Source of the DNA: Mesodorylaimus sp. YZB2_4
Taxonomy: Eukaryota; Nematoda; Enoplea; Dorylaimida; Dorylaimidae
Reading direction: 5' to 3'
DNA: 64,000 bases
NCBI GenBank assembly: GCA_030248295.1
Contig: JASANH010000427.1
Span: 1 to 64,000 of the forward strand
Shown here: one piece after another, positions 1 to 15,599 of the stretch
Layout of the letters: every line of letters starts with the position of its first letter
Position numbering within the stretch: the first letter of the stretch is position 1
Notes under the pieces: generated by a model
What the model was told of the DNA's origin: nothing
Databases searched by the model: none
Seen by the model: the letters and a program-made list of their open reading frames with translations, nothing else
Made by a program: the position numbers and the translations under genes

Positions 1-411
1 TACCTTCCCCCGTTGTGGGTCAGGCCACCTACACGCGTACTAAGGTTCGAATCTACCCTGCGCGGTCCCTACTGAAACGGACACTAATATAGACAACGCT
101 TTATTAGGCCGACAGGCGGACACCTCTACGCTGGTACAACCAACCAAGTGAAGAGCACTTATAGGAGAAGGGCAGCTGGGGGAATAGACCCAACCGCACC
201 GATCGACGAGTAGATAATGACTGACGAGCAGTCTAGGCGGGCCGGTCAGAAGGACCGATCCGGGCGAGGAACATAACCAGTCAGATCCGGTTTGATCTGG
301 ACTCTCTTTGCTCAGTCAGGCCTATGGAAGAGCACCTGTGCAAGGGCACGTGCAGCCGGGCGGTCTGCACCGAACGGGGAAGGAAACCCCCATCACAGGA
401 CTAGGGTTGCA
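1..411 (-). repeat. 3' LTR of the Ty3/gypsy element (5 bases cut off by window edge)
   Basis: Position 1 aligns with 10962 and identity runs to 411/11372. I count 6 substitutions in 411 aligned bases and no indel. On the element strand it begins TGCAACC directly after a polypurine tract. It carries an AATAAA polyadenylation signal at 105-100. A TATA-like CTATAAGT lies near 155-165; the 5' copy has CTCATAAG there. Confidence 0.95.
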
Positions 412-422
412 CTTCTCCCACC
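412..422 (-). other. Polypurine tract next to the 3' LTR
   Basis: On the element strand the sequence GGTGGGAGAAG lies immediately before the TGCAACC start of the 3' LTR. A purine run at this place is the plus-strand primer of LTR retroelements. Its position independently fixes the LTR edge at 411/412. Confidence 0.8.
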
Positions 423-1048
423 GCCAATTGAGCGTGACCCCACGCTCCTACTAAACCAGCTACCCGGGGCGAGAGTAGAGGAAAGTGGGAGCACCAATTG
501 CGATCAGGGAAAGAATTTAGACACCTGATCTGCCGGCCTTCCATATGAGCAGTATCAAAAGGGGAGTCCTAGATCAGAACCCAGGTGTGAATCGCAGAAG
601 ACTGCTACCCAGGCATACACGCCCGTGCTCTCGAGACGAATCTTCATTGCGGTATAACCAGCTGATAAGAGGGGCACATCGAACGAACGCACATGACGTA
701 TACCCCTACATAACATCCAATACTCATGGCGCCTAAACCCGCAAGGGCGGATATCTCCCCCCTCCTTCCTCAAGAACCTCACACACTTACAAAACGTCCT
801 ATATCACGAGGATCGACGTGTTTCAACCGACCATATTGAGATCGACAAGCGATCAAGATGTCCAGCGTAGACCTAGAGGCGACAAGCGACCAATCTTGAG
901 TGAGCTACGTTAAAGAGAAACCTAACAGGATCAACCTGTGTAGCGCGTGCGCGAAAAAAAAAGAAAGCCAGGACGACCTGATGCGCAAGCATGCGCGTAC
1001 GCAGAAAGGCACAAACGGCCAAGGAGCGCGTGCGCGTGCGCGAAAGCT
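423..1048 (-). other. Non-coding stretch between ORF3 and the polypurine tract
   Basis: About 625 bases with no convincing ORF on the element strand. Bases 930-1045 are rich in alternating GCGCGTGCGCG and TGCGCG runs, unlike the rest of the element. No recognised function. Confidence 0.5.
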
Positions 1049-1825
1049 TTAGGCATGCCGCGCAGCCGGCGACGGGCGCGCTGCGGGCCTAGTGGACCAT
1101 GAGATGGACGTGCCATCATCGGTAATGCCAGGGGGAAGACCAGCATTGCGGGCCTTTTGGCGCTGTTCCATCACGTGATGGTACGCCGAGATGGGGAGTC
1201 CTTGCAGGTAAGCTGATGGACTCGAGGAGGCAGTGACAGTGCGACGAACCGATCCAGGTCCCTGTGGCCGTGGATCGTGCGGCACGCCTCCACCAGACGA
1301 GGTCGCACTGCTTGGGCCAGAAGGTGACGGGCACGACCCAGACAGGGACAGCTGCGCCATCTCAGAATAAAGAGCAGGAACGAAATGCGCGGGCACCGGA
1401 CCCGATGGGATGGTAATAGGCGGTGAAGACACCGAAGACGAATTCGACTGCCAAGCCACCTGGCCCAATTGGAAGGCGCGAGTACGTAAATAGGTGACGG
1501 CTTCCTCGGAAAGGCACCAGGCCTGGAAGGTGACGAAAGGACGCTTCGTAGGGAAATGGAAAACTTCCCAATCGTCATCGAAAGGCACGGTTTCGATATT
1601 GATGCATCGCCGACCCTGGTAAAGAACGAAAGGCATATCAACAATGCAAATAGGCTTACCAGAGGTCGGGTGATCCAAATGATACGCATTGGGGATCAAA
1701 TACGTGAAGATACACGCATCACCAGACGTATCGATGACGTAATAGTTCGGAAGCCAATATTCCGTGGGGAACGGATCAGGCAATTGGGCACGAGACCCGG
1801 GAATAGCCGCGATGCACTCGGGCAT
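1049..1825 (-). CDS. Third ORF of the retrotransposon, function unknown
   Basis: About 258 codons from the first ATG (1825-1823), downstream of pol and before the 3' LTR, in the slot where errantiviruses and retroviruses keep env. The frame opens only 42 bases further upstream, right after a TGA. The N-terminal 130 residues look globular and rich in aromatic residues and proline (PTEYWLPNYYVIDTSGDAC). The C-terminal half is Ser/Pro/Gly-rich. I see no signal peptide, membrane segment, furin site or cysteine pattern, so it does not resemble an envelope protein. Expression would need a spliced or subgenomic RNA, since the start is 136 bases past the pol stop. No family recognised. Confidence 0.55.
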   Translation of the reverse strand: MPECIAAIPGSRAQLPDPFPTEYWLPNYYVIDTSGDACIFTYLIPNAYHLDHPTSGKPICIVDMPFVLYQGRRCINIETVPFDDDWEVFHFPTKRPFVTFQAWCLSEEAVTYLRTRAFQLGQVAWQSNSSSVSSPPITIPSGPVPAHFVPALYSEMAQLSLSGSCPSPSGPSSATSSGGGVPHDPRPQGPGSVRRTVTASSSPSAYLQGLPISAYHHVMEQRQKARNAGLPPGITDDGTSISWSTRPAARPSPAARHA

Positions 1826-1960
1826 CGTGATTGTATGGCGAGACGAGCCAGGGGGCTTTAAAAACAATCAGGGGCAGATCAGGGGGTTCCACCACGAGGC
1901 GGGAATTCAAAAATCGCACGATGCGACGAGCGCATTCTAGTGCTATAAGGGACACGGGTC

Positions 1961-4900
1961 CTAAAATTTGATATAGCGTAAAGCCTGATAAATATAGAGT
2001 TTATCCATGTCCAAAGTCTGGACTGGGAAATCCAAAAGATCCTTTTCGTTAGCTGCAAGTTTGGCTAAACGAACTGCTTCGTGGAATTTGGATTTCCTAC
2101 CTCTATATTTCTGAGGAAGATACGTCTTCTGCTTCAATTTCGCTTCAAAATAGGACAAGTGATCCTTGAAGTCTTTGAGCGCATTAATGTGGACATAAAC
2201 TTCGTTCATGTTATCATTGTACAAGAGTACACGATAAATTTGAGAAATGTCCGACATGCGGAACAAACTTTCATAAGTGCGCATGATTTTCTCCTTGTTT
2301 TCAAAATCGATAGGATAACCATCGGGGAATTCGACGATGAGGCCAGGCCACCACGGATACCCTGTGACCTTGACCCACACAATTTGACCACGTCGGAATT
2401 CGCCTGGTTTCCCACCTTGTGCCGCACCACTGGGTTTGTCAGTGAGGACGGGGGGCATACTCACAGCAGGAGTGCCGGAATCAATCGTTTCCATACGCTG
2501 ATCAGGTTCACGGGAAACCACAGCAGGAGTGTCGGTTTGGATAGTTTCGGATTCTTCGGCCAGTGCAGGGTCGACCACAACGGGCGTGGGTGCACTGATA
2601 CCTTCGATGGATTCGTTGGTCTTGACCAGAAGTTGCGGATGCCAACGTTCCAATGGTTTGGTCGGATCCAGGACACTACGGATAATAACACCTGTGTCAC
2701 CTAGGATCATAACAACTTCGTATGGACCAAGCCAGTGAAGGCTAAGTTTGCGAGATAGGCCTTCCTTGTAGTGGTAATTAGGCTTTCTAACCCAATCACC
2801 AACTTCCAAAGAAAGAGGCCTAGATGTCTTGTCAAATTGCATCTTTTGATGAAGATGGGCAATTGCAAGATTTTCTCGAACCTTAGCTTCAATGCTTGCC
2901 ATGCGAACACGCAAATGATCGACATAATCAGTCGTCGGGATGTGCTGGGTGGCGGGTCGAGCCAGCAGGACATCCAAGGACGTAGGAGGCTCACGTCCAT
3001 GACACATAAGGTATGGGGATACCTTAGTTGTCGAGTGAGGGGTATGTCTATAGTGCATCATGATCAGTTGGAGTCGGTTATCCCAATCCTTCTGATCAGG
3101 GTGCACATAGCATGCCATAGAAAAGCCAATAAGCTTATTCAAATTTTCTACGTTACCATTACACTGAGGATGGTACGGAGTCGTCGATGCCTTTTTGATA
3201 GCAAACTCGTTGCAAAGGCGTAGGACGAGTCGGGAAAGAAAATTTGAGCCACGATCACTGAGTAGGACTCTCGGGAATCCATGATGGGCAATCCATCCAT
3301 CGACCAATAGACGAGCAATGCGAGGGGCCGTTTGATCGGGAACGGCATAAGCTTCGGCCCATTTTGTGAAGATACACATAATGACCACTACGAAACGGTT
3401 GCCTTTATTGGAGACAGGGAAAGGTCCCTGCACATCGATCGCAACAGTGTCGAACGGGGCTGTTCTGGGCACTGTTTGCATCGGCGGCCGTTCGTATCGG
3501 TGTGGCTGCTTGAACCGTGCGCAAGTGCCGCACTCAGAGCACCATCGGCGCAAATCTCTACGCATAGAAGGCCAAAAGAACTTACATCGCAAAGCTGCGA
3601 ATAATCGATCGAAACCGGGGTGATTGGCGTCCCTGTGGGCAGAATCAAAGATGAATTTATGCAGAACCGCAGGGACGACAATTCTGTCGTGGATGTCGGC
3701 TCCTTCGACGAGACGACCATGATGAGACCACCTATGTTGAAGGATCCCATCCTTGTCCAATAAGTAGTCTTTCGCTATTCGTGCTGACTTTGCAGGAAGC
3801 AAATCATAGCCTTCTAGGTGACGAATAATCTGAAACAAATATTCTTCGTCACGTTGCATCTTATAAAGTAACTTACGCGAAGGCGCGTCGGGAAACACGT
3901 CGGATGCCAATGAAGGAATATCGAGTTGTGTTTCCACCTGACAATCAGGGTCTAATTCATCAATCAATTCGAGATCATCCTGATCAGAGTCAGAATCTAA
4001 AGATAGATTATGATCAGGTTGAACAGACAATTCTAGAGTCGCGTCATTAGGATCAACTCGATCCGTGACGTGTACACGCGCTGTTGGCAGGTGAGAAGGC
4101 TGAGACGGCCCAGCCAAACTTACTGCCAAATCGACGGCGCTGTCATAATCACTGTCGTATTCTGGAATAGCTGGTAATTCGAGCTTATTGGTCAAAGCTA
4201 CCATATTCATAGAAAACGCAGCAGTAAGAGGTGAAGGGAGCACCTCGTTCACGCAAGAAGCATTTGGAATTTTGACGTATCGCCAGCACCGAAGGCTCCT
4301 ATGCAGGAGTTCGGGCGGGCAATCGATACGATCGTCGCTCTCTGATTCATATCCACTACGGGGATCAGAGCAGGAATCATGAACAGACTCACTCTCAGAC
4401 GTGGAATGGAATTCTGGTGCAGGAAGCGCATCTATCATGTCGATGGCGTCCTGATAGGTCTGGACTTCTTCTGTTGCGACAGGCGCGGGTGTCGAAGTGA
4501 AACCATGAGGAATCAATGCGGCCAAAACGGAGGCACTACATCGATTACACCGTTGATATGGATGCAATGCTGCAAATAGTACAATATCAGCTGTTGGTAA
4601 TCTCGACAAGGCGTCAGCAGCACCATTATCGCATCCACGAGCGTGAGTGATGCTAAACAGATAATCCTGTAGTTTGAGTAACCACCTACCCCTCCTACCT
4701 TCGAGATCTTTCTCCTTATACCATTGTAGGAGCGGTTTATGGTCAGTATATACCTCAAACGGGCGACCATAGAGATAATATCGATAATGGAGAATGCCCC
4801 AATAAATGGCGAGGCATTCTCGATCGATCGTCGAATACTTCTGTTCGGCTGAGTTGAGCGTACGAGACGCATAGCCCACCGGCCACGGTTTCGTTGGACG

Positions 4901-7219
4901 GGCTGGGTCGTATTGTTCCAGCACTGCGCCAATAGCCGTGTTGCTAGCGTCGGTGCTCAACCGGAAAGGTAAAGAGAAATCGACGAATCGCAGGACTGGT
5001 GGAGAAACCAGCCGCTGACGGAGGTCTTCGAATTCTGACTGACAAGCGTCTGTCCATTCGAATTTGGTACCCTTTCTGAGGAGATGCCTCAGGGAACGAG
5101 ATCGTTGAGAAAATCCCTCGATAAACGATCGATAGTAACTAGCAAGACCTATGAACTTATGTAGTTCGTCTTGGTTACGGGGAACCGGAAAATTGCGAAC
5201 CTTATCGATTTTATCGTCTGTTGGACGATAACCGTCTTTCGATATGCAATGTCCAAGGTACTCGACCTTGTCCATTCCAATCGAACACTTCGAAGGTTCC
5301 AATTTCAGGTTAGCATATCGAAGTCGATCGAACACAGTTGCCAAGTGGGACTCGTGTTCATCAACCGATCTGCTAAAAATAATAATATCATCAAGATAAC
5401 ACATGACGTATTGCCAAAGAAGACCACTTAATGCCAATTCCATGCATCGTTGAAATTCAGCAGGGGCATTGCAGAGGCCAAACGGCATATTTGCATATTC
5501 CCAAAATCCAAAGGGGGTGATAAATGCTGTTTTCTCAGCCGTTGACGGATCCAAGGGGATCTGGCTGTAACCCGAAGTCATATCGAAAACAGAAAAGATG
5601 GTACTACCTCGCAATGTATCCAACATTTCGTGAATGTTCGGGAGCGTATGCGCATCTTTCCGTGTCACAGCATTAACAGCTCGGAAATCGATGCACATTC
5701 TCCAATCGCCATTCTTCTTCTTGACCATAACGATCGGAGACGCCCAAGAAGAGCGTGATGGTCGAATCCAACCAAGGCGAAGTAATTTGCCAATTTCTTC
5801 TTTCACGATCGATTTTTGGCTTTCGATCAGGCGACGAGGTCGAGCCATAATGGGCTTGGCATCGCCTGTGTCGATTTTGTGCTTCGCTAAATGCGTACCT
5901 GCAATCTCATATTTGTTTAGCGCAAAAACATCACAGTTTGAAGCTACCACTTTTCGAAGTTTCTCACGATCGGCTTCTGAAAGTTGATCATGGCCAACAT
6001 TGAGTCTACGCAAGAGCGTCTGTTGCCTATCAGGATCATTAGGGTCGATATGAACATTTTTCGGCCATGTCTCAGAATTATAATCCTCTAAATCACGAAC
6101 AGTCGTGAAAGTGGGATTGACGAGTTCCACCTCTGGGTCAATAAGTAGCTGAGGCTGAAGGAACTTAGGCATGGGCCTTTCCTTAGGACCTATGTTGACA
6201 ACGAAGCTGTACTCACCGATGTCATCGTACTGGACGAGATCGGGAACAACCCAAACTTTGCGAGGGCTTTCTCTGACGCGCAGAGCCAGGTTGCGATAAG
6301 TATCGAGTCGGACCACTCGGAATGGATCTGGTTGAGATAGTAAACCAACATACGTGTACTTCGGTAGTATTTGGGAATAACCAGCGAGGTTGATCATTGT
6401 GATCTTGACACAATTCTTTGATCGTGCGTTGACAGTACAGCGCGGGATCATTACCCGAGAATCGACGTGTACGGGTTCGATCACGAGATCAACATCCCTG
6501 TACGCTGGAGGTAGTCGAACAGGCACTACAGCATGAGCATGCGCCTCTAATTTGATGTCGTACGTGAGCATTGCCATATTGTTTCGTCCTAAGACAATGC
6601 TGTCTTTTCTGAACGGAACCTCGACACCAGCCAGGTCACCGGCTGTGTATCGAATAACACCAATATCGGTGAGATACTGAAATCGATGACGTTCACGATT
6701 GAAATCTTCACCGAGAAGGACTTGGTATTGACCTTTCTCTGAAACGAATAGTGGTGTATTAAAAGCAACTTTACCACCGATAACCACATCGAGGCTGATA
6801 AATCCCAAGAGGGGCATTATCTGGCCATCGCCGTCGATGCAGTCTGAAATACCACCTGGTTGTAGTAGGTCTCTTGAGTAGGACGAGCCTAAGACACTAC
6901 GAAGAGTCGGTTCGCTAATAAGTGATACTGACGAACAGCTATCAATTAGCGTAATCAAATCGACGTGATTAATACGCGTAGTAATAGAAGGCAGCTGTAC
7001 TCCCGTTGGGATGTACGCTGCTTGGCCGTTATGAAAACAAACATTATGTCGTTCCTGAGTATTAAAAGAAAAAGACAGATGAGGAATCGACGTTGACGGA
7101 GCTTGATCGTTTATGACCTCATCACAGGACGAGCCTTGAGGTGCAGCAGATGCGGCGATTGCAGTCGTCGAACCAGGCGATGCAGCAATGGGTGTACTTA
7201 CTGCATCGCCCTCTCCCCG
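1961..7219 (-). CDS. pol: Pol polyprotein: protease, RT, RNase H, integrase, PWWP
   Basis: This is read by -1 frameshift from gag, with about 86 codons before the protease core. In the numbering used here residue 1 is the TTG codon at 6958 and the length is 1,665. Protease spans about 3-100 with active-site triplet D6-S7-C8, where G is normal at the third place. RT spans about 365-560, with D459 and YLDD at 521-524. RNase H spans about 660-787 (D670, D739). A long acidic Ser/Asp/Glu linker spans 790-1025. The integrase zinc finger has H1108, H1113, C1140 and C1143, and the core triad D1175, D1235, E1271 has D,D-35-E spacing. A GPY/F module lies near 1409. A PWWP domain fills about 1523-1632 (motif YPWWP at 1534-1538), followed by about 33 residues. 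No frameshift or internal stop is seen. The PWWP presumably steers integration to methylated histone; that role is inferred. Confidence 0.93.
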   Translation of the reverse strand, partial: RGEGDAVSTPIAASPGSTTAIAASAAPQGSSCDEVINDQAPSTSIPHLSFSFNTQERHNVCFHNGQAAYIPTGVQLPSITTRINHVDLITLIDSCSSVSLISEPTLRSVLGSSYSRDLLQPGGISDCIDGDGQIMPLLGFISLDVVIGGKVAFNTPLFVSEKGQYQVLLGEDFNRERHRFQYLTDIGVIRYTAGDLAGVEVPFRKDSIVLGRNNMAMLTYDIKLEAHAHAVVPVRLPPAYRDVDLVIEPVHVDSRVMIPRCTVNARSKNCVKITMINLAGYSQILPKYTYVGLLSQPDPFRVVRLDTYRNLALRVRESPRKVWVVPDLVQYDDIGEYSFVVNIGPKERPMPKFLQPQLLIDPEVELVNPTFTTVRDLEDYNSETWPKNVHIDPNDPDRQQTLLRRLNVGHDQLSEADREKLRKVVASNCDVFALNKYEIAGTHLAKHKIDTGDAKPIMARPRRLIESQKSIVKEEIGKLLRLGWIRPSRSSWASPIVMVKKKNGDWRMCIDFRAVNAVTRKDAHTLPNIHEMLDTLRGSTIFSVFDMTSGYSQIPLDPSTAEKTAFITPFGFWEYANMPFGLCNAPAEFQRCMELALSGLLWQYVMCYLDDIIIFSRSVDEHESHLATVFDRLRYANLKLEPSKCSIGMDKVEYLGHCISKDGYRPTDDKIDKVRNFPVPRNQDELHKFIGLASYYRSFIEGFSQRSRSLRHLLRKGTKFEWTDACQSEFEDLRQRLVSPPVLRFVDFSLPFRLSTDASNTAIGAVLEQYDPARPTKPWPVGYASRTLNSAEQKYSTIDRECLAIYWGILHYRYYLYGRPFEVYTDHKPLLQWYKEKDLEGRRGRWLLKLQDYLFSITHARGCDNGAADALSRLPTADIVLFAALHPYQRCNRCSASVLAALIPHGFTSTPAPVATEEVQTYQDAIDMIDALPAPEFHSTSESESVHDSCSDPRSGYESESDDRIDCPPELLHRSLRCWRYVKIPNASCVNEVLPSPLTAAFSMNMVALTNKLELPAIPEYDSDYDSAVDLAVSLAGPSQPSHLPTARVHVTDRVDPNDATLELSVQPDHNLSLDSDSDQDDLELIDELDPDCQVETQLDIPSLASDVFPDAPSRKLLYKMQRDEEYLFQIIRHLEGYDLLPAKSARIAKDYLLDKDGILQHRWSHHGRLVEGADIHDRIVVPAVLHKFIFDSAHRDANHPGFDRLFAALRCKFFWPSMRRDLRRWCSECGTCARFKQPHRYERPPMQTVPRTAPFDTVAIDVQGPFPVSNKGNRFVVVIMCIFTKWAEAYAVPDQTAPRIARLLVDGWIAHHGFPRVLLSDRGSNFLSRLVLRLCNEFAIKKASTTPYHPQCNGNVENLNKLIGFSMACYVHPDQKDWDNRLQLIMMHYRHTPHSTTKVSPYLMCHGREPPTSLDVLLARPATQHIPTTDYVDHLRVRMASIEAKVRENLAIAHLHQKMQFDKTSRPLSLEVGDWVRKPNYHYKEGLSRKLSLHWLGPYEVVMILGDTGVIIRSVLDPTKPLERWHPQLLVKTNESIEGISAPTPVVVDPALAEESETIQTDTPAVVSREPDQRMETIDSGTPAVSMPPVLTDKPSGAAQGGKPGEFRRGQIVWVKVTGYPWWPGLIVEFPDGYPIDFENKEKIMRTYESLFRMSDISQIYRVLLYNDNMNEVYVHINALKDFKDHLSYFEAKLKQKTYLPQKYRGRKSKFHEAVRLAKLAANEKDLLDFPVQTLDMDKLYIYQALRYIKF
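2063..2392 (-). other. PWWP domain at the C-terminus of Pol
   Basis: The translation begins RGQIVWVKVTGYPWWPGLIV, which fits the first two beta strands of PWWP domains (G-x-hydrophobic-V-W-x-K-x-x-G-Y-P-W-W-P). A YRVLLYND strand follows about 35 residues later, where the family has its V-x-F-F/Y-G strand, then an N-x-V-Y-V-H-I strand and a basic helical tail ending in EAVRLAKLA. Known PWWP domains bind H3K36- or H4K20-methylated nucleosomes and DNA. In this polyprotein it follows the integrase GPY/F module, the slot used by the chromodomain in chromoviruses. Confidence 0.88.
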
Positions 7220-7225
7220 TTTTTT
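7176..7225 (-). promoter_or_regulatory. -1 ribosomal frameshift signal between gag and pol
   Basis: On the element strand the heptamer A AAA AAC occupies 7225-7219 in the gag frame and fits X XXY YYZ. An 8-base spacer follows (7218-7211). Then comes a perfect 10-bp stem, GGCGATGCAG (7210-7201) pairing with CTGCATCGCC (7185-7176), around a 15-base loop. The gag stop opens the loop. The pol frame is -1 to gag and open from 7291 down through pol, so the shift must happen in the 30-codon overlap that holds this heptamer. All parts match the canonical retroviral arrangement. Confidence 0.88.
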
Positions 7226-10200
7226 GGATGGTTGGGAGAGAGATTCGCTGATGAACTTGTTCGACGCAATCGATCGGGGCCACGATTTAAATTAGGAGCA
7301 CTCGAAGTGCGAGTCAGACTATCATTTCGTCGGCGAGATGGGCACTCGGATGATAGATGACCAGGGCGTCCACAGGAGACACACGGACTAGGGCAATTCC
7401 GAGCATAATGCCCAGTGCCACCGCAATTGTGACATTTGTTCTTGAATTCATTACCCGAGGCTTGTCGTTGCCTGGATAATTGATCACGACGGGGGTCGCG
7501 ATCAGCAGATTGATCACGCGGACGGTCATTGCGATATCGATCTGGTGTTTGATCACGCGATCGATATCCATGCTGGTCACGCTGATCATACTGCCGTTCG
7601 TATGATGAATCGCGAGGGCGATACCCGTATCGCTGATCACTTCGATAGCGATCGCGATATCGATCATCCGTGGATTCACGATATCGATCTCGAGATGAGT
7701 CTCGATATCGGAAATCGGATGATTGACCACGATAATCACCATAAGAACGTGACTGCGAGTTACCTCGATAGGATCGTTGGTACCCTCGTTGGCCACGAGA
7801 GCCAGGGCGTGAATATCGTCCACGATACGAGCCAGATGGGCCACGGAATGAGGTGTGATGAACCGTGTTGGACGAGCCAGGTTCGTCGTCGTGGTAATCT
7901 TCGTCGTATTCGTCGTCGACAAAGTCATCAGGCTTATCTGGATGAAAAGCAGAAGTTGTCATGACTTTAGCAGATGGACTTACTGTAGCCATAGTCACTG
8001 CAGACGACGAAGACGGCTTGTTCACAGCGAAATATGATTCGTAATCACAAGCGAGTTGGATCTTCCGTGATAGGTCAGGCGGACCTTTCTCCGACAGTAG
8101 GACTTTCGCCAATTCTGAGCGGAGTGGTTCCACTAAGCCAGCGGAGAATTGGAACGAAATTTCTTGTTCTCGCTGCGAATCGTTGGAATAAAGACCGCGA
8201 GCTAACTCACGAAGACGTTGTAGATACTTCATGACAGGCTCAGAAGCAGTCTGAACGCAGGCCTGGATCAACCGCCTTTGCGTGTCAGGATGAACTGGTC
8301 TGTCATAAGTTTCTGACATTGCCTTAACAGCAGATTTGAAAGACTTGGTTTGAGCTTTGGAGAGCTGAGACCAAGTGATTGCAGCATCGTCTTTCATACA
8401 AGATGCGAAGTAACGCAACTTCACCTTGTCTTTGAAAGAATGCATGCAGCTTTCAAATTGCCTAAGCCAAATGCGAAACTCACCATTCATACCACCTTTG
8501 AACGAGTCCAAAGGTTGTAATCGTGGGGTATCTAAACGTTTCGAAGTAGACTTACGTTTGGTCTTTTTCTTCGATTTCCTCGATCGACGATGTTTCGATC
8601 CTGACGAACTGGAGGACTCGGAAGATGAATCCGTCGTCGTTGATGATGACGACGAGGGAGGCGATGACGATGGACTCGAATCATGATCGGATTCCGCATC
8701 GCTTGTAGATACAGTGCACGGCGACACATCGTCTCTTCGTGATCGCTGCTGCCTTCGAGGCGGATCACGCGACGGTCGTTGTTTCTTCTTGCGAGAATCA
8801 TCATCTCGCTTGCCATGTTTCTTGTCGTCGTCTCCTGGTTGCTTGCCATTACCAGGGGGATGTTTCGGCTTACCACCACGGGGTGGTCTATCGTCGCCAA
8901 CCGGGTCGTCGCGAGAGGTACCTGTAACATGACTGGACGAACCAGGTTGAATATTGACGACGGTAGGTACAGGCGACCTTCTAGAAGAAGTGGTTACTGT
9001 AGAAACAGACGTTGGAGGGTGTCTCGGATACGGCGGGATACCCTTGACAGTTGCCTGAACTACAGATTCACCCGGAAAGAAGGATGTGGCGACATTAGGG
9101 TCGGTGTTGAACCCATGATATTCGTTATCAGGATGCCTATGACCACCAGCGGGTCTTAATCGGCAGAAATTAGTTTGGTTCTCGTTAGGCACTATAGTAA
9201 ACGAGTTACCTGCCTTCGGATCTTTCGACGAGGTGTCGGTCGGAGGTGGCATGTTGCAAAAGGCAGTCCACCAATAGACGAGAGGATCCCATAAGAAGGG
9301 TAAATGGTCATTACACAACGAATCTGGCAAGTACTTACGACATTCTTCGATGTGCAATTGTTTCTTTGTGAATTCGAAGAATTCGAATGCTGCCGCTTGC
9401 ATCCAACCGATCATTGGCAGTTCCAGATCGTTCTGAGGCACTTGGCCTGTTGGGAAACTCTTAAAACGAAAAACATAATCAGCTATGCAATAGAGAACCA
9501 ATTCTCGCTTCAAGAGAAGCAAATACGTCGACGGGTAGCGTTGCATTTCTTTAATAATATCTCGAGGCCAAACGCTGAACCAGCCAGCCATGCCAGCCCA
9601 GCGATCGAGAATGCGAATATCAGAGCAATGGATGATATCGTAGGCCGTGACGTTGTGTGTATGGTGTTTGTTCGTACCATGTTGACCACCGGCCGTCGCT
9701 CCTGCGGTGCGTGCAGGAGGGTTCGAAGTAGACTCGCTACTCGCAATCGCATTAGTTGTGGCTGGGCTTACCACATTCGACGGAGATGTTTGAGAAGGCA
9801 TCGCAGCCTGAGTTGTGTCTAGCGAGCCGATAGCCGGGACACGCCCTTCGGCTGATTGATCGGTCGTCTGGGGCAAAGGGTTAGGAGCAGAGGAAGAAAA
9901 ATTATGCTTACCCAACCCAAAGGCCACCGACGGGCGATTGATGGCATCGGCGCCCAAATCGGAATGATCCCAGGCGAGCGAATCACGCGTAGACACATCG
10001 GCCTGTTGGTCGGCGAAATGCTCAGCAAGGAGGCCTTGCAACGGAGGCGATGTTAGAATTACAGTAGGCACTGATGAAGCTGACGTGCAGCCAGTGCTCG
10101 AGACGGACGAAGCTGGTACAGAAACAGGCGTCGTAGCTGTTGTTGTAGACACCGTTTTGCTAGACGAGCCAGCTTGAGTGTACAGCTTGCCGAATGACGA

Positions 10201-10431
10201 CTGTGTCGTAGTGATGGCCGTTGTACGCACAGGGGTGCGAAAGAGGCCTGAAGACGAAAAAGGATCGTTAGTAGACATAGTTACAGCAGGCTGTAGACCA
10301 CTATGCGACGGTTGAATGGTGGGCTGTTGATGACCACTGCCCACTGTGTTGACGACTTCGTGCACCGATTGACGAATCGAATGCACTTTCTTATCAGGTC
10401 GCTGAAGACGAGATGTGTGCACACGTCGCAT
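7198..10431 (-). CDS. gag: Gag polyprotein with two zinc knuckles
   Basis: This encodes the structural protein that forms the retrotransposon particle and binds its RNA. The frame is about 1,077 residues from the first ATG (10431); a GTG lies two codons upstream. Residues 1-260 are Ser/Thr-rich and low in complexity. Residues 260-470 are ordered and Trp-rich, with no family I recognise. Residues 510-635 are Ser/Arg/Lys-rich. Residues 640-805 look like a retrotransposon-gag capsid (LDSFKG to YESYF). Residues 850-995 are rich in RGG, RD and YR repeats. Two CX2CX4HX4C knuckles follow at about 1002-1032. It is roughly two to three times the usual Gag length. The stop at 7200-7198 lies just downstream of a frameshift signal leading into pol. 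The frame is intact. Confidence 0.9.
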   Translation of the reverse strand: MRRVHTSRLQRPDKKVHSIRQSVHEVVNTVGSGHQQPTIQPSHSGLQPAVTMSTNDPFSSSGLFRTPVRTTAITTTQSSFGKLYTQAGSSSKTVSTTTATTPVSVPASSVSSTGCTSASSVPTVILTSPPLQGLLAEHFADQQADVSTRDSLAWDHSDLGADAINRPSVAFGLGKHNFSSSAPNPLPQTTDQSAEGRVPAIGSLDTTQAAMPSQTSPSNVVSPATTNAIASSESTSNPPARTAGATAGGQHGTNKHHTHNVTAYDIIHCSDIRILDRWAGMAGWFSVWPRDIIKEMQRYPSTYLLLLKRELVLYCIADYVFRFKSFPTGQVPQNDLELPMIGWMQAAAFEFFEFTKKQLHIEECRKYLPDSLCNDHLPFLWDPLVYWWTAFCNMPPPTDTSSKDPKAGNSFTIVPNENQTNFCRLRPAGGHRHPDNEYHGFNTDPNVATSFFPGESVVQATVKGIPPYPRHPPTSVSTVTTSSRRSPVPTVVNIQPGSSSHVTGTSRDDPVGDDRPPRGGKPKHPPGNGKQPGDDDKKHGKRDDDSRKKKQRPSRDPPRRQQRSRRDDVSPCTVSTSDAESDHDSSPSSSPPSSSSSTTTDSSSESSSSSGSKHRRSRKSKKKTKRKSTSKRLDTPRLQPLDSFKGGMNGEFRIWLRQFESCMHSFKDKVKLRYFASCMKDDAAITWSQLSKAQTKSFKSAVKAMSETYDRPVHPDTQRRLIQACVQTASEPVMKYLQRLRELARGLYSNDSQREQEISFQFSAGLVEPLRSELAKVLLSEKGPPDLSRKIQLACDYESYFAVNKPSSSSAVTMATVSPSAKVMTTSAFHPDKPDDFVDDEYDEDYHDDEPGSSNTVHHTSFRGPSGSYRGRYSRPGSRGQRGYQRSYRGNSQSRSYGDYRGQSSDFRYRDSSRDRYRESTDDRYRDRYRSDQRYGYRPRDSSYERQYDQRDQHGYRSRDQTPDRYRNDRPRDQSADRDPRRDQLSRQRQASGNEFKNKCHNCGGTGHYARNCPSPCVSCGRPGHLSSECPSRRRNDSLTRTSSAPNLNRGPDRLRRTSSSANLSPNHPKNGERAMQ

Positions 10432-10437
10432 ACCCAC

Positions 10438-10956
10438 AAGCGTGGGCTACTAGCCTAGATGTTAAACAAACAATGGCACGAAGAAAATAATCAATACAAA
10501 TTCGAGCCGCGTGTAGAAACTGTGGGAAGAATACCACACGATGCCGAATAGGGGACTTGCCCGAGACACGAAATAAGGGCGAGTCCAAAGACGCAACGAG
10601 AAAATGACAATTTACCTGGTAGAGTCTGGGGATACCAGATGCACTTACCAGGGCGATCCCAAACGCCACGCGAATCTGGTTGCCGAGCTGCTTCGGGAAT
10701 CGTACGGAGGTGATCAGCCGTACCGCGACGAGTACACCGACTGCAAGACTGGGCGAACCACGGGCAGACCTTGTCTGAAAAGATCAAGTGGATCTAGAAT
10801 AAACAATCAATAAATATTCTTCTTTTCTGAAAATTTCTTCTTTCTTCTTTCTTCTTTCTTCGAAGAGATGGTAACGTCGACAAGCGACTCTCCTCTCGGT
10901 CGATCGACGTTTGTAGAGTCGGGCGTACACCGGACGCAGGGAGTTCGCGACGCCAA
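10438..10956 (-). other. Untranslated leader of the retrotransposon
   Basis: About 520 bases lie between the 5' LTR and the gag start and hold no long ORF on the element strand. A GAAGAAA-type purine repeat occupies about 10829-10861. A packaging signal would be expected here, but none can be recognised by eye. Confidence 0.6.
10938..10955 (-). other. Probable primer binding site
   Basis: Read on the element strand this starts TGGCGTCGCG, one base after the end of the 5' LTR. TGG complements the universal CCA 3' end of a tRNA, which is where Ty3/gypsy elements bind their primer. I could not name the tRNA from the following bases, so the assignment rests on position and the TGG only. Confidence 0.5.
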
Positions 10957-11372
10957 TGTGGTACCTTCCCCCGTTGTGGGTCAGGCCACCTACACGCGTA
11001 CTAAGGTTCGAATCTACCCTGCGCGGTCCCTACTGAAACGGACACTAATATAGACAACGCTTTATTAGGCCGACAGGCGGACACCTCTACGCTGGTACAA
11101 CCAACCAAGTGAAGAGCACTTATGAGGGAAGGGCAGCTGGGGGAATAGACCCAACCGCACCGATCGACGAGTAGATGATGACTGACGAGCAGTCTAGGCG
11201 GGCCGGTCAGAAGGACCGATCCGGGCGAGGAACATAACCAGTTAGATCTGGTTTGATCTGGACTCTCTTTGCTCAGTCAGGCCTATGGAAGAGCACCTGT
11301 GCAAGGGCACGTGCAGCCGGGCGGTCTGCACCGAACGGGGAAGGAAACCCCCATCACAGGACTAGGGTTGCA
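10957..11372 (-). repeat. 5' LTR of the Ty3/gypsy element (promoter copy)
   Basis: A 416-base direct repeat of the left LTR. On the plus strand it runs from TGTGGTACC to GGGTTGCA, so the element strand has the usual TG...CA ends. The inner edge is set by a tRNA-like CCA one base before the TG. It carries AATAAA at 11066-11061. This copy should drive transcription of the element leftwards. Confidence 0.9.
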
Positions 11373-13214
11373 CAATCATCAGCGAACACTCGGCGCCAAA
11401 TTTCACGTTCGTCCTCACTCGACAAGGACAAGATGCTGAGTGAGACTAGTGACACTGAGCCAGCGGCCACTTCCTTGCACTGGGATGCTAGACGGTGGAT
11501 CAAAGCGGCCATCGGGCCATAATCGAGCTGCTGGCGGTGCTGAATGGCTTGGCACAAATAAAGTGCCCGATGTGGACCCCACTTGAAAAATGCACTAGCG
11601 CTTTTGAGCACACCTGGAATAAGATAGGTGCTGAATCGACGGACCATGGGGTAAATCTTGTTGCATCACTTGGCAGGCTGATAAGCAGCGGTCAAATGCT
11701 AAAGAGTGCTGCACATTGCAGAGACCGTTAAGGTTGCTGATTTTCTTGCTATGGCTTTGAGCATTTGCTAGAGATTCTGGAACTTTTTGCGTTTTCAAAC
11801 TGCCTTTCGTGCTTGCCCATTGTGTAATCAAGGCAGTATAATATTATTTTAGTCTTCTCTGCTCACCATTTCTGAACGATTAGTTCATTCGATGATAGGA
11901 CACTATAGGCTATTGTTGAGCGTTTCAGGTGGAGTTGTTTCAGTGCTGTCCCCCCCCCAGGGATAAGCAAGCTACAAAATAGCCAGCTAGATACTGTAGG
12001 AGGCTTTTTAAGTTCTAGCGCAAGATCTTAGCTACCTAAGTGCATATGTGAAGAATAGCTGCAACTTTGGGTGGAGGAGTGCTTGTGATTCGACTGGGTC
12101 CGTATTACTGGAGGGTATAAAGGACACAACCAAATGGGGTTCACGAGTTTATGGTGGAAGCGATAAATTAACCAATGAGCCATTGAATCAATGGTAAAAG
12201 GGGCCAATCAGTCAAAACCCTTTTTATATATCAAGCTAATCAGAATAGATTAGAATGCAAGTGGAAGCGAAAGGAAGTGAAACATATGTCACCATGTTCG
12301 AAAGGTGACGCCTTTGGAAATATCAGGCAATAGGAAAGGCTAAGTTAGTTGGAAAGGTAACGCTCTGGGAAAGATCATAAAGTAGAGAAGGTTGAGAAAG
12401 CGAGGAATGTTAGCTGAGTTGTCAAAGGTTAGGAGAAGTTGGAAAGGTTGTGAGAATGATTCACTGCTCGTGATAGGCTCGACAGAGGGAGTGAAGTGAT
12501 TGGTGACGCTTTCGTACCACGCCAAAAACCGATGGCAGCCAACCAAGTGTGTCGACCTAGACTATTTTTGAAACATCGCCCTGATGAGTGGCACTCCCAG
12601 CTGTCAGTTCCGAGCAGAGTATCTAAAGCCAGTCGAGCCTCTATACTTAAAAAAAATTCTTGCTTTTTTTAAACTCGTGAGAATTGTCTTTATGCCATAC
12701 TCACTATCACGATCAGCAGAAGCCAAGGATCCATGTTGTGCAATGACCTTTCACTTGACGTCTTGTCAACAGCTATCGATGTGGATACCGTTCGAGTAAT
12801 AATTTGGATTCTAAGAAGTTTGGTTCTCAAGATTGAGAGTTTTCAATTTCCCAACATCCGGGCAGTTTTTCTTACTGCGTCTGGCAACAACGCTGATAAC
12901 TAGCTGCTAACTTTGATAACATTCATGACAGGTTCAGTTTTAGTGCGGCAATAAAATAATCAAGGTCTGATCAGCATATCTTTGCATAAAAATTACACAT
13001 CCCAACATCATAAAATCGACGACTTACCCGCCAGTCCACTTCGAGCATCAGCAGCCTCAGCCAATTTTTTCAATTGAAATACAGCCGTTTGGCAACATGA
13101 TCCATACTCGCCGTCATGTTCGATCAATACATAAGGTTTGGGCAATTGATTAAGCCATTCCAAAAATAATTTTGTCGATTGTTTTTCTGGAAGTACTTCC
13201 CGCAGAACTTTCAT
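11373..13214 (-). pseudogene. 5' part of an unidentified host gene broken by the retrotransposon
   Basis: Two exons can be read. Exon 1 (13214-13028) starts ATG, encodes MKVLREVLPEKQSTKLFLEW and onward, and ends GCGG before GTAAGT (phase 1). Exon 2 starts at 11613 after ATTCCAG and joins in frame (GGT codon across the junction), giving GVLKSASAFFKWGPHRALYL and onward to an acidic stretch (SSEDEREIWRRVFADD). That frame runs straight into the LTR at 11372 with no donor. Together about 140 residues, helix-rich and Leu/Ala-rich, with no family I recognise. The rest should lie beyond the left edge. The paired donor, acceptor and phase argue for a real gene; the coding status of exon 2 is inferred. 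It may be intact on another haplotype. Confidence 0.5.
11614..13027 (-). other. Intron of the interrupted host gene
   Basis: The stretch lies between GTAAGT (13027) and ATTCCAG (11614) on the minus strand. It is AT-rich with short homopolymer runs. I see no ORF, RNA gene or recognisable repeat in it. Confidence 0.45.
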
Positions 13215-14212: not shown

Positions 14213-15488
14213 TTAATGGGAGGCAAATAGTCCTGTAGTTTTCCCTGACAAAGCTGCGGTGGTCTTATGAGATTTCGACTCATCGCTATCTTTCGTCCAC
14301 CACATTTCACACATCTCGTGTAACTGACTCACACACCAAGTCAAAGATGGCTTTACAGGAAAAGGTGGTTCACAGTTATCCAATAAAAACATCACTCGAA
14401 AACTACTTTCCTCAAGCTGTTGCCGAAAAAAATCAGCTAATTTGCGATTCTTGTTTTACTGGAGTGCGTAATTATGAGGGGAGCAACTCGGCAAGGCTGC
14501 AACATTAAAAAACGCCGAGTCATTCGATTTTTACATAAACAAGCGCAACTGTGCTGATATTGGAGAAAATAAATGTGATCTGACAGAACAAAGCGCCTCA
14601 AAAATTTCTTTTTCCAAGCAGCTTCCTTCAATAAGGGCCCCTCTCAACAAAACGATACAAAGAAATGAAGTAGACCAAAGACATGCGATCTTGGCACTGA
14701 CCATCAGGCCACACTACTTTGTGAACCACAGCTTTCCATCTCTGATCCAAGAAAGACGCCAATCTTTCACCCAGTGGGACGAACAGACAGCCCGGCACAG
14801 GGTCCGCGTGCAACCATTGGCCGTCGTTGGTTTTTAGTTGCAATCCTCGGCCATCGTTCAAGAGCAGGGTGAAGGCTGATGCATCCGTGTGCTCAGCCAG
14901 ACGATTATCTTGTTTCGCTTTTGGTGTCAATCCGCCTGGATAGAAATTGACTTTCATCACGTTTGGACCACTGTGACATGCTTGATAGAACTGATCCACA
15001 TCCGGTACATTGGCAGCCAATGCAAGGACTGGCATTACTTTTCCAGCCAATTCTCCAAAACTTTTATAAATATTTTCAAGATTTCTTTTCATTGTTTGTG
15101 GTTGATCAGGCCAAATATTTTTTGAAATATTTGAGTCGTCTGGTCCAAAAACCAATCTTTCGATGGGATCTTCAGCGAAACCTGGTCGACCCAAAAATGC
15201 GTTGACATTAATTGCTTCGAATGGAATAAAACCTCTGGATCGATTGGGTTCAGCAAACTGAAGTTTATATCCTGTTGGCAACGCGAAAAAACGATGTGTA
15301 TCGGATTGAACATCTTCGATTAAGGAAGCGGGTACTGTGTGATTCTTCATGTAGAAACAGCCGAATGTTGTCATGGCGTAGTCCACATGCTTGGCTACCT
15401 CTGATAAGGCGGCATCAGTGACGGGGCCGTTGAGCACTGTTGCGAAGTCGATGACCGGGATGCCTTGCGGAGAGAGCTCCATGATCAT
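14213..15488 (-). CDS. 2-oxoglutarate/Fe(II) oxygenase, isopenicillin-N-synthase-like
   Basis: A non-haem iron oxygenase of the DIOX_N plus 2OG-FeII_Oxy architecture; the substrate is unknown. The ORF from ATG 15488 starts IPVIDF at residue 10, typical for the family, with GCFYMKNHTVP following. The iron site is H-x-D in AEHTDASAFTLLL plus the distal His in VVHKVVWP; the 2-oxoglutarate Arg is in DRMSLVYF. The uninterrupted frame ends at 14628 after 286 codons, short for the family. A better C-terminus comes from a weak donor at 14654/14653 (GTTTTG) and an exon 14436-14213 (acceptor ATTAG), giving LYPDFFRQQ and a tail with EPPFPVKPSLTW, in the same phase. That join is tentative. The main exon has no intron across 830 bases. 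Such enzymes are common in bacteria, fungi and plants but patchy in animals. Confidence 0.75.
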
Positions 15489-15599
15489 GCGGCTGTGGGC
15501 GTCTGTAAAATTAACACGTTTAGCCCTGGAATTACCACACTTTTAAATCATCCTCCCCAGGTGCGTGCACGTGGATGCCATGTACTGCGTGCATAAAAA

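Follow-up and report, generated by a model that had tools for sequence, protein, structure and literature searches.

What does a PWWP domain do at the end of a Ty3/gypsy integrase, and how did it come to be there? The question is raised by a Ty3/gypsy-type LTR retrotransposon on the minus strand at the left end of the window, by which we mean the whole 64,000-nucleotide stretch analysed here, i.e. the initial 64 kb of C77, a contig of a 145-Mb assembly with 1067 contigs. The host is a nematode, and its assembly contains 133 hits for the N-terminal domain of cuticle collagens; a zero count for Chitin_bind_4 carries no weight on this point, as no control gave a match either. Read along the element from its 5' to its 3' LTR, the features are:

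10957..11372, minus strand: 5' LTR, TG...CA, 416 bp, direct repeat
10940..10956, minus strand: primer-binding-site-like stretch TTGGCGTCGCGAACTCC, immediately 3' of the 5' LTR, no tRNA assigned
7198..10446, minus strand: gag ORF, 1082 aa, with Retrotrans_gag and CCHC knuckles (two stretches)
7219..7225, minus strand: slippery heptamer A AAA AAC, inside the gag-pol overlap
1961..7291, minus strand: pol ORF, 1776 aa, a single open frame through the PWWP domain
5249..5725, minus strand: reverse transcriptase (RVT_1, 119.3 bits)
4661..4981, minus strand: RNase H (RT_RNaseH, 118.3 bits)
3521..3637, minus strand: integrase HHCC zinc-binding motif, from Pfam and motif reading
3167..3463, minus strand: integrase core (rve, 39.1 bits)
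2714..2728, minus strand: GPYEV, a motif of the GPY/F type in the C-terminal domain of integrase, identified by eye
2051..2389, minus strand: PWWP domain joined in frame to the C-terminal end of the integrase, from Pfam and PDB phmmer
1964..2050, minus strand: C-terminal stretch of Pol past the PWWP match, from the ORF
1049..1867, minus strand: 272-aa open frame between pol and the 3' LTR
412..425, minus strand: purine-rich tract GGCGGTGGGAGAAG, just upstream of the 3' LTR
1..411, minus strand: 3' LTR, truncated by the contig start, its last 5 bp absent

The order of reverse transcriptase, RNase H and integrase within Pol, together with Gag and the LTRs, is that of Ty3/gypsy elements (Metaviridae), and the integrase carries both the HHCC motif and a D,D35E core in which Asp 1346 and Glu 1382 have 35 residues between them. 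Its C-terminal domain gave no Pfam match in the window copy. The pol frame lies at -1 relative to gag and overlaps it, and -1 frameshifting is predicted at the overlap. The protease profile gag-asp_proteas scores 14.3 bits in the window Pol, below its cut-off, and a protease-like motif at pol residue 117 (window 6935-6943) reads DSC instead of D-S/T-G; two related families of the same genome (D and F, introduced below) have protease matches above the cut-off. The 272-aa frame behind pol gave no Pfam match, and tblastn detected nothing like it in the other loci fetched. The longest post-pol frames in eight loci of other families span 94-349 aa, and none is similar to it by tblastn.

The two LTRs of the window element are identical at 405 of 411 aligned positions (6 differ), and at least 41 LTR matches, both window LTRs included, were found in the genome with 40 of 200 candidates scored. 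Twelve sites were fetched from the 41 listed matches. At seven of them a solo LTR is flanked by an exact duplication of 4 bp, and the remainder (four 5' LTRs with primer site and one 3' LTR) mark one end of longer elements. It is these seven sites, not the window copy with its absent left flank, that supply the short target-site duplications. The 20 bases following the LTR are identical at 4 of 12 other LTR sites, and at L053 19 of the 20 bases before the LTR match the purine-tract region of the window. With its LTRs, target duplications and intact catalytic motifs, the lineage has been mobile in the past.

A first, sequence-only reading of this DNA had placed a PWWP domain in frame behind the GPY/F module of a Ty3/gypsy Pol without a stop, where chromoviruses have their chromodomain, and had called for a profile search. 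Both the placement and the domain assignment hold. Within the single 1776-aa frame, the integrase core and GPYEV are followed by a 147-aa tail, residues 6-117 of which (nt 2389 down to ~2051) match PF00855 with 49.2 bits (E 7.5e-13), above the curated cut-off of 25.6 bits. The YPWWP motif, there numbered 1534-1538, occupies residues 1645-1649 of the ORF, its codons running downward from 2359; the base coordinates agree. A phmmer search of the PDB with the window PWWP returned mostly PWWP proteins (DNMT3B, NSD2, NSD3, MSH6, the HDGF family and LEDGF/PC4-SFRS1-interacting protein). A Chromo match was absent from the window tail at E up to 1, and PWWP was the sole match above cut-off there. A fold model computed from the window tail alone as a single sequence was useless (pLDDT 38.5).

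The domain is not peculiar to the window copy. Its tail recurs with 100% amino-acid identity at 4 places (C77, C342, C402 and C552), at further places with 77-98% identity, mostly with stops or breaks, and as more distant relatives in many places at 30-39% identity. Across the assembly there are 146 PF00855 matches, presumably including host genes, and 35 of them lie inside open frames of at least 1000 aa. We fetched 33 loci, made up of 20 PWWP loci and 13 further integrase or PWWP loci, and scanned fourteen ORFs against Pfam in pieces or long stretches. Reverse transcriptase, RNase H, H2C2, rve and an above-cut-off PWWP occur in one frame in 10 ORFs (window, L010, L012, L017, L020, L023, L024, L028, L040 and L041), a set selected from PWWP hits and so not an independent rate. 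These ORFs belong to nine families (A-H and J, with the window copy in A), so that the fusion is present in at least nine families. A further family, I (L035, L036 and L038 on C271, C123 and C884), encodes a dUTPase (73-140 bits) that separates RNase H from integrase, the order known from non-primate lentiviruses. The tails of L035 and L038 are PWWP-like and degenerate: L038 scores 18.4 bits, below the PWWP cut-off, L035 has no match yet can be aligned, and L036 is truncated by a contig end. Among the 13 second-batch loci, six tails (L029, L031, L032, L034, L037 and L039) show no PWWP on reading; the L031 frame stops early, and L039, the fourteenth scanned ORF, has no PWWP match by Pfam either. 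L030 has a copia order by reading, and L033 is family E-like and truncated by a contig end.

Selection acts on the tail wherever enough changes have accumulated. Pairwise dN/dS of the tail is 0.10 for L040/L041 (Fisher 9.8e-15, with synonymous sites near saturation), 0.10 for L020/L021 (Fisher 2.5e-13), 0.07 for L024/L025 (Fisher 4e-8) and 0.18 for L017/L019 (Fisher 1.4e-3). The values for L020/L018, L020/L022 and L025/L026 (0.12, 0.10 and 0.08) are not independent, as their tails are common to other tested pairs. The other pairs of the 15, with few or no tail changes, gave ratios from 0 to 0.88 where calculable, and the tails of L018/L022 are separated by 1 synonymous change and 3 others. For the window against its 59% relative (C535), dN is 0.31 with synonymous sites saturated (Fisher 2.7e-17). 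Judged by the pairs with enough changes, in which dN/dS is near 0.1, the PWWP tail is under purifying selection.

In order to rationalise what such a domain could contribute, we propose that the integrase would assemble on the LTR ends after reverse transcription, that its PWWP would bind nucleosomes through a methylated histone tail plus DNA, and that this binding would bias the site of cDNA insertion, comparable to the role ascribed to the chromodomain of chromoviruses or to LEDGF, whose PWWP does the targeting of lentiviral integration. A role of the PWWP as a built-in chromatin tether of the integrase is, in our view, probable; binding to chromatin, the mark read (H3K36me2/3 or another) and the effect on target choice are what we infer.

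How such a tether might read chromatin can be judged in part from the methyl-lysine cage. We placed the cage residues of the element families via alignment to LEDGF, in which we take the cage positions to be Met15/Tyr18, Trp21 and Phe44 (Phe236 and Trp239 in DNMT3B). Families B and C have Phe-Trp-Phe, all three aromatics. Trp and Phe are kept in D (Ile-Trp-Phe), E (Val-Trp-Phe), G (His-Trp-Phe) and J (Gln-Trp-Phe). Family A, that of the window, reads Tyr-Trp-Leu and lacks one of the three cage aromatics, F reads His-Leu-Phe, H reads Phe-Ala-Phe, and I1 is also without the Trp. The third-place Leu of family A is common to its 59% relative, and recent decay is therefore unlikely. For B and C, reading of a methyl mark is plausible on these residues.

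The most specific form of the proposal, and the one that the sequence-only reading had in mind, is that the PWWP steers integration to H3K36-methylated active gene bodies, as LEDGF does for HIV. We regard this as possible, with more doubt than belief. The PWWP domains of NSD2, NSD3 and DNMT3B are H3K36me readers, and these three are among the best PDB relatives of family B; those of family D include LEDGF and the HDGF family. Against such steering, the cage is incomplete in the window's own family. The insertion sites speak on both sides. The flank adjoining the 5' LTR (window 11375-11665, minus strand) is open for at least 97 codons beside the insertion and has a single genomic relative (45%, C108:46059-46310) within a 1103-aa open frame; it gave no Pfam match. 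The open frame and its relative make the reading of this flank as an exon plausible, and the point is a weak one because the left flank is missing, the contig beginning in the 3' LTR. At seven empty sites we looked for an open run across the insertion, a crude test that is blind to introns and chromatin state. The run was unusual at one site (161 aa, a length reached by 1 of 100 simple shuffles), whereas at the other six between 8 and 80 shuffles in 100 produced a run of that length, which counts against H3K36me steering with introns outside the test. Of the earlier suggestion that the insertion lies in a gene exon and fits gene-body targeting, the exon at the window thus stays plausible, and a preference of insertions for exons is not supported.

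Alternatively, the PWWP might serve as a general grip on DNA or nucleosomes, or retain the pre-integration complex in the nucleus, with no specific methyl mark involved, which we consider rather unlikely. In its favour, PWWP domains bind DNA, and the cage is incomplete in A, F, H and I1 while selection on the tail is still strong in F and A, the two compared. The full aromatic cage of B and C and the Trp and Phe kept in D, E, G and J argue the other way.

Coming back to the built-in tether, the tail has changed faster than reverse transcriptase. Its identity is 35% between families A and B (76% in reverse transcriptase), 54% between B and C (83%) and 63% between D and E (77%), a faster divergence that is as compatible with loose constraint as with changing targets. 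Moreover, the DNA of L040 and L041 shows 88-100% identity up to and including the integrase, and the value falls to 66-74% from a point ~150 nt ahead of the PWWP as far as the stop codon, then to 42-49% beyond. This drop indicates that the 3' end including the PWWP was replaced, most simply through exchange by recombination. Of the 14 pairs profiled, this pair alone is a clear example of an exchanged tail; copies of family F are likewise mosaic. These patterns could mean that the lineage internalised a tether of the LEDGF type, with PWWP heads that diverge fast and swap between subfamilies so that the insertion niche changes. We put this forward as a tentative reading that may well turn out to be wrong, under which a reader exchange of the L040/L041 type would move a lineage to a new insertion niche.

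We then consider how the domain was acquired. A tree of RT-RNase H was built from 41 rows, comprising the window, 18 of the 33 fetched loci and 22 references hand-picked from 120 listed RT-search proteins; L030 (copia-like), L033 and L036 (contig-end cuts) and near-copies were left out. Of the 13 PWWP rows, which include two family I rows below the PWWP cut-off, 11 group together with support 91/98 (not a starred branch); family F is unplaced, and family H is a long branch. With all 13 constrained to one group the log-likelihood drops by 0.02 units, no ground for rejection (p-AU 0.52). Placing the PWWP rows in a group with five presumed chromovirus-like rows (two Haematococcus, two Chara and one Lolium, hence few chromovirus rows) costs 15.7 log-likelihood units and is not rejected either (p-AU 0.12). 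A single acquisition of the PWWP at a deep point of the lineage is the probable history, with tails that then diverged fast. Several independent captures by different Ty3/gypsy lineages would account for the unplaced F, the long branch of H and the single group of 13 appearing in just 52% of bootstrap trees, and we hold them to be improbable, though not negligibly so: a single origin is not rejected, and the distance from integrase core to PWWP is similar across matches. Of the 146 PWWP matches, at least 40 follow a same-strand rve match at a downstream distance of 599-751 nt, a lower bound in that 52 of 150 listed rve places were compared and 150 of 526 candidates scored. A one-off capture, a splice or read-through into a host exon, or an assembly join, at which the start of the contig within the element might hint, is to be dismissed on the multi-family evidence, because the same order recurs in many copies, in nine divergent families and at those 40 places, and with this the earlier concern that no profile would match or that other copies would lack the domain falls away.

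Among the closest known systems are the chromoviruses. A chromodomain at the integrase C-terminus is named as the chromovirus hallmark in a passage of PMC3605345. The window element resembles chromoviruses in having Gag, the RT-RNase H-IN order and a chromatin-reader module after a GPY/F-type region, and differs in that this module is a PWWP, with no Chromo match in the tail. In the RT tree, the two chromodomain-bearing Haematococcus rows stand apart from the PWWP rows. On its domain content the element is assigned to Ty3/gypsy and is not filed as a chromovirus, because a chromodomain is absent. Chromo matches do occur ~520 nt downstream of rve on the same strand at 4 places elsewhere in the assembly (C682:24516-25429, C268:117353-118266, C851:15884-16797 and C1059:470-1381); the genome thus also has an integrase family with a chromodomain, which may be Polinton-like or may be a decayed chromovirus.

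The second system is that of the lentiviruses, for which a passage of PMC3185499 describes LEDGF as a targeting factor of integration. There too a PWWP-bearing protein joins the integrase to chromatin, as we suppose for the element, with the difference that the PWWP resides on a host protein bound by the integrase, whereas in the element it is part of Pol. Host PWWP proteins (LEDGF/HDGF, MSH6, NSD2/3 and DNMT3B) share the PWWP domain itself and, to our knowledge, carry no integrase.

Close relatives with the same fusion were not found outside this genome in the searches made. The best-scoring annotated RT relatives, among the best 120 of 3379, are mostly pols of the pseudoscorpion Cordylochernes, and PF00855 was seen in none of these 120. 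Ty3/gypsy pols of Cordylochernes scorpioides and Trichinella papuae are among the best annotated RT-search matches, with an RT-RNase H identity of 47% for P0001 and P0010. The window tail, compared with 5.8 billion proteins, gave 1170 candidates, none at E 1e-3, and the family D tail gave 35, none at E 10; these searches need shared 5-residue words, which limits their sensitivity, so that an absence of the PWWP tail elsewhere is not shown by them. Viral contigs scanned with the 546-aa C-terminal piece of the window Pol yielded no relative. No description of a Ty3/gypsy lineage with a PWWP fusion, of which the earlier reading knew none, appeared among the open-access records listed for PWWP.

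Lentiviruses use a host reader and chromoviruses their own chromodomain, and a lineage equipped with a PWWP of its own would add another solution; its integrase would represent a natural covalent counterpart of the integrase-LEDGF tether. As full-cage, incomplete-cage and PWWP-less Ty3 families coexist in one genome, this genome offers an internal comparison of reader domains, one that addresses how such domains shape the landing sites of mobile DNA.

Some further observations concern the assembly and the remainder of the window. Contigs C76, C78, C111, C128, C174, C192, C372, C538 and C847 (at their starts) and C123 (at its end) terminate 675-720 bp past an rve match; C123, whose end adjoins the rve match, belongs to the dUTPase family. 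Such ends are probably assembly breaks at a young repeat, with an insertion habit tied to ends as a less likely reading. At 14628-15542 (minus strand) the window contains an oxygenase frame of the 2OG-Fe(II) type that includes a DIOX_N domain and runs for 304 aa without a break, a possible case of horizontal acquisition. A cuticlin gene and a chitin-binding gene are also present within the window.
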